Assembly: GCA_017411435.1 (NCBI GenBank) | Contig: JAFQQD010000014.1 | Coordinates: forward strand, 1-64,000 | Source of the DNA: Clostridia bacterium | GTDB taxonomy: Bacteria > Bacillota > Clostridia > UMGS1883 | DNA: 64,000 nucleotides | Direction: 5' to 3' | Shown: positions 62,758 to 64,000 of the stretch, one piece after another | Layout: the number at the start of each line of letters is the position of its first letter | Numbering within the stretch: the first letter of the stretch is position 1 | The notes under the pieces: model-generated | What the model was told of the DNA's origin: nothing | The model's input: only the letters and a program-made list of their open reading frames with translations | Database searches by the model: none | Position numbers and translations under genes: made by a program

Positions 62758-63609
62758 ATGAAATTATTAACCAAGGAACTAATTCAGAAATTCAAAATTT
62801 ATTTAATCAATGAAGAAAAAGCGGAAGCGACCATTGAGAAATATATGCGAGATATATGCGCATTTATGGAGTGGATTTGCGAGAAGGAAGTGTGCAAGGA
62901 GTATGTTTTGCATTACAAAAAAGAACTTATAGAAAAATATGCTCCAGCAAGTGTAAATTCGATGCTTTCGTCACTCAATGCATTTTTTGCTTACAATGAA
63001 TGGTATGAACTCAGAGTAAAATCCATTAAAATTCAAAAGCAAATATTTAGTGCTAAAGAGAAGGAACTTACAAAAGCGGAATATGAAAGGCTTATCAATG
63101 CCGCAAAGAGTAAAAACAACAAAAGATTATATTATCTAATGCAGACTATTTGTTCCTGTGGCCTGAGAGTATCGGAATTGAAATTCATTACAACAGATGC
63201 CGTAAGGCGTGGACAAGCAACAATTAACTGCAAGGGAAAGATGAGAATTGTTATTTTGCCAAAACAGCTTTGCAAAATGCTCGCAGTTTATATGAAAGAA
63301 AACAATGTAAAAAGCGGCTCCGTGTTTGTAAGCAAAAACGGAAGACCGCTTAACAGGTCAAATATATGGTCTGATATGAAAAAACTCTGTGAATCTGCCG
63401 GAGTTTCCAAAGATAAGGTATTCCCTCATAATCTCAGACATCTTTTTGCAAGAACATATTACTCTCTTCAAAAAGATATAGTAAGACTAGCTGACATCTT
63501 GGGTCATTCAAGCGTAAATACTACGAGAATATATACTATGGAAAGTGGAGATGTTCACAGAAAGCAAATTCAAAAACTAGGGTTACTCCTGTGTAATAAT
63601 ACATTATAA
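62758..63609 (+). CDS. Tyrosine recombinase (XerC/D family)
   Basis: The 283-residue site-specific recombinase has an N-terminal SAM-like core-binding domain (1 to about 90) and a catalytic domain with the full set: Arg137 (GLRVSE), Lys159 (CKGK), His224 and Arg227 (HNLRH), His250 (LGHSS) and the nucleophile Tyr259 (TRIY). AAAGGAAG precedes the ATG. No prophage or conjugative genes are visible in this window. The stop codon lies inside the first of two inverted recombination-like sites, which suggests a dedicated invertase for the adjacent DNA. Confidence 0.92.
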   Translation: MKLLTKELIQKFKIYLINEEKAEATIEKYMRDICAFMEWICEKEVCKEYVLHYKKELIEKYAPASVNSMLSSLNAFFAYNEWYELRVKSIKIQKQIFSAKEKELTKAEYERLINAAKSKNNKRLYYLMQTICSCGLRVSELKFITTDAVRRGQATINCKGKMRIVILPKQLCKMLAVYMKENNVKSGSVFVSKNGRPLNRSNIWSDMKKLCESAGVSKDKVFPHNLRHLFARTYYSLQKDIVRLADILGHSSVNTTRIYTMESGDVHRKQIQKLGLLLCNNTL

Positions 63610-63631
63610 CATAATTTGTATTATGTTATAA
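63604..63631. promoter_or_regulatory. Left inverted recombination site (candidate)
   Basis: A perfect 11-6-11 site: arm TTATAACATAA, spacer TTTGTA, then the complementary arm TTATGTTATAA. This is the geometry of dif/XerCD sites. It shares ACATAAT-TTGT-ATTATGT (18 bp) with the right site in inverted orientation. The recombinase stop codon is in its left arm. Confidence 0.65.
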
Positions 63632-63664
63632 CATCACAGACACTAAACCTAATTATACAGTATT

Positions 63665-63693
63665 ATTATAGCATGCAAAGGTAGAAAAGTCAA
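63665..63693 (-). promoter_or_regulatory. Strong minus-strand promoter inside the segment
   Basis: On the minus strand: TTGACT (63693-63688), 17 bp, TATAAT (63670-63665). In this orientation it fires toward the 3' end of the recombinase gene. Confidence 0.75.
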
Positions 63694-63763
63694 TGATTTG
63701 CAATTAATTTACATAATTTTATATTTCTTTCGGATATTTGAACAAAAATAGACAACGAAAAAT

Positions 63764-63804
63764 AGGCCAATGTAATAATTTCTGACAACATTGGTCTTTT
63801 TTTC
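63764..63804. terminator. Terminator hairpin inside the segment
   Basis: AGGCCAATGT (63764-63773) pairs with ACATTGGTCT (63788-63797), one G-U pair, with T7 after and A5 before it, so it can act in both directions. Confidence 0.75.
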
Positions 63805-63813
63805 GTGTGCAAA

Positions 63814-63842
63814 TTGACACATATGCCCTATACAAGGAAAAT
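63814..63842 (+). promoter_or_regulatory. Weaker plus-strand promoter toward the flavodoxin-like gene
   Basis: TTGACA (63814-63819), 17 bp, GAAAAT (63837-63842). The -10 box matches only 4 of 6. Confidence 0.4.
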
Positions 63843-63856
63843 ATATCAATAACTAC

Positions 63857-63880
63857 ACTACATAATACAAATTATGTAGT
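63857..63880. promoter_or_regulatory. Right inverted recombination site (candidate)
   Basis: ACTACATAA, spacer TACAAA, TTATGTAGT: 9-bp arms and a 6-bp spacer that is the reverse complement of the left site's spacer. It lies 57 bp upstream of the next ATG. Confidence 0.65.
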
Positions 63881-63937
63881 AACTGTCAGTGGATAAAACT
63901 ATGTATATAAAATTAAAAAAGCAAAGGGGGTTAAACC

Positions 63938-64000
63938 ATGGAAAGGCTTGATAGTAGCTAGTTATTCTTATCATGGAAACTCAACAAGTAAGACATTTAG
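63938..64000 (+). pseudogene. 5' end of a flavodoxin-like gene, apparently out of frame, cut by the window edge
   Basis: AAAGGGGG lies 7 bases before an ATG at 63938, but that frame stops after seven codons. One base shifted, from 63951, the sequence reads IVASYSYHGNSTSKTF, which fits the first strand and FMN-phosphate loop of flavodoxins. Either one base is extra between the start and codon 5, or a TTG at 63948 with poor ribosome spacing is used, or the read has an error. The rest lies beyond the window, so the call is tentative. It is the first gene downstream of the invertible-segment candidate. Confidence 0.5.

Follow-up and report, generated by a model that had tools for sequence, protein, structure and literature searches.

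The window analyzed here, a stretch of 64,000 nucleotides, corresponds to positions 1-64000 of a 96,788-bp contig from a 2.0 Mb Clostridia genome, its edge lying inside the contig. As described in the initial annotation, it carries a complete tyrosine recombinase gene, an open reading frame on the forward strand (62758-63609) coding for a 283-residue, Xer/XerA-like protein, presumably an invertase, with matches to the Pfam profiles PF00589 (E 1.7e-30 in the profile search) and PF02899. The protein has the catalytic R-K-H-R-H-Y set of tyrosine recombinases, and R137, K159, K161, H224, R227, H250 and Y259 are invariant across 146 aligned relatives. The nearest solved structures are 4a8e, 5hxy and 1a0p. 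Protein family and catalytic residues are common to the chromosome-resolution recombinases XerC, XerD, XerA and XerH, but unlike these the window recombinase is multi-copy and adjoins inverted sites, and its scores fall far under the NCBIfam equivalog cut-offs (141 vs 220 for XerA, 132 vs 330 for XerD and 116 vs 335 for XerC), which ruled out identity with any of these three equivalogs.

Two palindromic recombination sites follow this gene. The left site (63604-63631) is, as first described, an exact 11-6-11 palindrome with the spacer TTTGTA that overlaps the recombinase stop codon; despite this overlap, the gene would not be disrupted by strand exchange within the spacer. The right site (63857-63880) has the position and inverted orientation originally assigned to it, but not the 11-nt arms, since it is a 9-6-9 palindrome, ACTACATAA-TACAAA-TTATGTAGT. 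The reverse-complement spacers and the 18 bp common to both sites in inverted orientation were also recovered, the likeness extending to 23 bp at 91%. The axes of the two sites are 251 bp apart, which is 23.9 turns at 10.5 bp, and the two inverted sites with their matching spacers flank a putative invertible promoter segment (63632-63856) without cargo genes. Homologues of this segment are oppositely oriented in relatives, and it aligns in opposite orientation to locus L110 (69% over 174 bp). In the whole 2.0 Mb genome the pattern ACATAAT-N4-ATTATGT has exactly four copies, two in the window and two beside a paralogous recombinase, and the reversed control pattern none. This paralogue (C20, 69% identical) is the only close second recombinase in the genome; its switch has the same layout, with the sites CCACATAAT-CGAA-ATTATGTGG and CCACATAAT-TTCG-ATTATGTGG and a promoter-like TTGACA-17-TATACT that points at the recombinase, and is followed by a small ORF and then by a gene for a large secreted protein.

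The region is rich in promoter-like sites, with nine in 63500-64000 compared to 3.6±2.1 in shuffles, in agreement with the promoters initially placed between the sites. The best match, a TTGACT-17-TATAAT with an extended -10 TG on the reverse strand (63665-63693), faces the recombinase and, judged by sequence match only, could face the target once the segment is inverted. The assembled orientation, with its main promoter pointing left at the recombinase, is therefore predicted to be OFF for the downstream operon. A weak match on the forward strand (TTGACA-17-GAAAAT, 63814-63842) faces the operon; it is doubtful and has no general counterpart among relatives, and given this match the OFF state may be leaky. 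The segment also contains a hairpin (63755-63806) with 19-nt arms, 89% complementary, and A/T tails on both sides, which could act as a bidirectional terminator. The terminator originally described between the sites is thus present as a hairpin, but it was absent from the list of the terminator scan, and for this reason we call it putative.

Downstream of the right site, a ribosome site followed by the start of a flavodoxin-like gene had been reported, making a redox protein the unusual target of the switch. The ribosome site is a good one, but the ATG behind it (63938) opens only a 7-codon ORF, MERLDSS-stop (63938-63961, forward strand), a leader or remnant located between the right site and a surface-protein gene. 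The flavodoxin-like letters (63948-64000, forward strand) span about 17 codons in a frame other than that of this ATG, have no good start of their own, and run into the signal peptide MKSKKIIAWILFMAMLVTMIPSSLVFA..., which begins beyond the window at contig position 64017. Their frame is continuous with that of a 2,520-residue secreted surface protein, which has its ATG at this position. In addition, the 30-residue flavodoxin-like stretch had no Pfam match, and no flavodoxin-like remnant was found in relatives. The flavodoxin target was rejected on these grounds; the claimed redox target, which would have been surprising, is not real. When the target was read beyond the window edge (L004, C2:54001-72000), the 2,520-residue protein showed a bacterial Ig-like match (PF12245) and was followed on the same strand by genes for four proteins (470, 214, 649 and 708 residues) that each have S-layer homology domains; one of the four also contains BspA-type leucine-rich repeats, and one a von Willebrand A domain. 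A 482-residue subtilase also belongs to this operon, which reaches about 79,370; beyond this point the strand switches and housekeeping genes follow. By its predicted domains the target is a cell-surface operon, the classic target class of invertible promoters.

The recombinase belongs to a family that is widespread in Clostridia. A GTDB genome scan gave 80 loci, and searches by rank found matches at E≤1e-60 in 61 of 391 sampled Clostridia genomes, with at most six per genome and close relatives in distant families of the class. The DNA downstream was long enough for testing at 144 of the 158 distinct recombinase genes. Loss of the sites beside the recombinase in related genomes had been named as evidence against a switch; in the stretch from the 3' end of the recombinase to +500, an inverted repeat scoring at least 16 was found in 131 of these 144 relatives and in none of 432 Markov shuffles (the window pair scores 18), while 13 relatives have no recognisable pair. 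In many relatives the sites have only 17-20 bp in common. The family consensus of the sites is ACCACATAAT-N4-ATTATGTGGT, with which switches can be annotated in one assembly alone, with no need of reads. At the 102 loci with exactly two sites, picked by arm letters alone and not by spacer match, the spacers are identical in the inverted register in all 102 cases and in the direct register in none (permuted mean 3.0), and 61 distinct spacers occur among them. Strand exchange by tyrosine recombinases such as Cre, Flp and Xer needs agreeing spacer letters, which a mere binding site does not; spacers that are matched but otherwise free therefore favour strand exchange over mere binding sites.

We also considered distinct spacers as a rule within genomes, and found it unsupported: eight of 58 within-genome pairs have the same spacer, compared to 2% of all pairs, because some sets of paralogues are recent copies. 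At three loci of one genome (G330; L139, L140 and L141) the segments are 100% identical over 248 bp and the recombinases about 91-93% identical in DNA, and these segments look as if they had been copied between loci; a sister copy, L142, has a pilin-like gene downstream. Some switches have an extra site copy 32-46 bp from one site and in the same orientation as its neighbour, on the right side in L022, L026, L027, L049 and L051, on the left side in L028 and L080, and also in L048 and L070, which may serve as an alternative crossover or for accessory binding.

Promoters and orientations could also be compared across the family. A promoter score of at least 11.5 was reached by 83% of the family segments vs 1.4% of shuffles, and a score of at least 12.5 by 61% vs 0%. 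Hairpins with a stem score of at least 11 are likewise over-represented (25% vs 3%). The promoter faces the recombinase (OFF) at 80 loci and the target (ON) at 25, an excess that could reflect selection or asymmetry; as a guess, antisense transcription across the recombinase gene in the OFF phase might lower its level and stabilise OFF. The -10 end is mostly 34-48 bp away from the axis of the site closer to it, at about three distances, 35, 46 and less often 57 bp, roughly 11 bp apart. Furthermore, a comparison of homologous loci, akin to the one of related strains recommended in the initial annotation, revealed both orientations: with no promoter call used, 39 pairs of homologous segments are oppositely oriented and 72 have the same orientation, these flipped pairs being between species or paralogues and not between strains. 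Such pairs include L018/L110, with 90% identity over 175 bp, L112/L115, with 79% over 247 bp, and L041/L056, both from a single genome, with 82% over 196 bp. The 39 flipped pairs indicate that inversion has been repeated in evolution.

The centre-to-centre distances between sites are not evenly spread but cluster near 220, 230, 241, 251, 262 and 272 bp. At a period of 10.5 bp the mean resultant length R is 0.557 (n = 117), with a phase of 0.95 turn, near whole turns; when each 75% identity cluster contributes a single locus, it is 0.51 (n = 73), and with 65% identity clusters it is 0.36 (n = 38, p about 0.01). Periodicity is lower for the distances from the stop codon to the left site (0.22) and from the right site to the start codon (0.12). 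In branch-disjoint pairs of the recombinase tree, length differences that reach 6 bp tend towards multiples of 10.5 (mean cosine 0.55, n = 25, V-test p 5e-5), and so do those of at least 3 bp over longer paths (mean cosine 0.27, n = 36, p 0.012); clustering and branch-disjoint pairs reduce the effect of shared ancestry and do not wholly remove it. That short DNA loops carry a torsional cost is established from the looping of repressors and from studies of Cre and Flp, and the whole-turn distances suggest selection for sites on the same helix face. We consider it likely that this is a large family of self-contained switches in Clostridia in which sequence and length drift but the sites stay separated by whole helical turns, mostly 21-26. 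The natural variation would thus record the torsional cost of pairing across a loop of about 250 bp, and the spacers would drift freely but in step at each locus. We found no report in the open-access literature of helical phasing as an evolutionary signal in invertible promoters, and this phasing and the spacer drift are possibly new points. The phasing predicts a flipping rate that oscillates with segment length, with a period of about 10.5 bp.

With regard to the targets, a crude signal-peptide rule predicts a secreted product for the first downstream gene at 53 of 102 loci, compared to 20% of a background set of 350 genes. Proteins of 1000 residues or more are encoded within the first three genes at 31 of 102 loci vs 1% of background genes; the target fractions are per locus and the background per gene, and they give a direction, not an exact enrichment. 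A TetR-like regulator, named by eye, comes right after the switch in L026, L028, L029, L044, L049, L050 and L060, in place of a direct surface-protein target, and in several of these loci a giant secreted protein is next. Other targets named by eye are helicase-like (L025, L058) and DnaK-like (L020) proteins, TGHRPDK proteins (L069, L071, L096, L127, L150) and IIKYEGDNSTF proteins (L018, L113, L167, L168). The recurrence of non-surface operons in several genomes indicates that the module is not limited to surface proteins. Altogether, this appears to be a portable, multi-copy phase-variation module of Clostridia from the gut, represented mostly by ruminant and rabbit MAGs. Every copy has a recombinase and sites of its own and a promoter close to consensus, and the module mostly precedes large surface proteins or lipoproteins and also TetR-like regulators, helicase-like and pilin-like genes.

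Sequence comparison gives the anatomy of the locus, the matched spacers, the promoter match, both orientations among homologues and the identity of the target. The phase-variable promoter switch of the initial annotation is borne out at this comparative level by the conserved site pair, the spacers, the two promoter orientations and the flipped homologous segments, and it is very probable that the window carries an invertible-promoter (phase-variation) module in which the recombinase flips the segment and switches the surface operon. The recombinase would bind the two palindromic sites directly behind its own gene and exchange strands in the matching 6-bp spacers, inverting the segment of about 250 bp. 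In the ON state the strong promoter of the segment would read into the secreted and S-layer-homology surface operon, and in the OFF state, the assembled orientation, it would read back at the recombinase gene and leave the operon off. The whole-turn spacing suggests that the two sites have to lie face to face if they are to pair efficiently over so short a loop. The flipping by this recombinase, its occurrence in this strain and the dependence of transcription on orientation are inferred.

Other explanations account for part of these data. The region is AT-rich, and the initial annotation had not excluded chance given the 18 bp shared; the counts refute this, since the four genome-wide copies all lie in two recombinase-linked pairs and the arrangement is conserved in the family and absent from shuffles, so that chance palindromes have essentially no probability left. 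Sites that are both palindromic and helix-phased also resemble the operators of looping repressors, and they could bind the recombinase or a repressor for autoregulation, with no inversion. A repressor needs no matched central letters, whereas the asymmetric spacers match only in the inverted register at every two-site locus though they differ between loci, and homologous segments are found flipped, making operator-like autoregulation very unlikely.

A mobile element or phage remnant, with the sites as attachment sites, might be suspected from the integrase-family protein and its close relatives in distant Clostridia families. It is extremely improbable, as no relatives of the recombinase were found in viral contigs, the sites are inverted and not direct, with matched spacers and no cargo between them, and all seven active-site residues are kept in the 146 proteins. 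Finally, a former switch could now be frozen in this strain, by a silent recombinase or by decay of the sites: the outer arms of the sites differ beyond the 18 bp, and the orientation is OFF. This seems unlikely, since the spacers, the 7-bp inner arms and the frame and active site of the recombinase are intact, and the same short identity is seen in many relatives.

Promoter inversion by tyrosine recombinases has ample precedent (PMC5903667, PMC7446863, PMC9286219), and the module for which we argue, a segment flipped by its adjacent recombinase, can be compared with several of them. Inverton group 139, defined from reads of gut strains, has 32 of 33 members from Clostridia and, beside almost all of its invertons, a tyrosine recombinase of invertase group 35, and its flipping has been proven by reads (Microbiome 2025, PMC11892184). 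By two printed coordinate sets of this group, the site centres are about 231 and 241 bp apart, within the distance classes of the window family, and this group, which agrees in host class, adjacency and spacing, is probably the same family as the window switch; the passages on group 139 do not discuss helical spacing or spacer matching (PMC11892184). The RecV switches of Clostridioides difficile (cwpV, flgB, cmrRST and pdcB) likewise consist of a short segment upstream of a gene or operon, short inverted repeats and a tyrosine recombinase (PMC5903667, PMC7446863, PMC9286219), and include a surface gene, cwpV, among their targets. RecV acts on several remote sites with mostly unrelated repeats, whereas in the window family each pair has its own adjacent recombinase and the arms follow a common consensus; a remote master invertase of the RecV type was rejected for the window because each of the four exact site copies that the genome contains adjoins a recombinase gene. 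Mpi of Bacteroides fragilis also controls invertible promoters for surface structures, as proposed here, but it belongs to the serine recombinases and acts at many loci (PMC5903667), in another phylum and at different sites.
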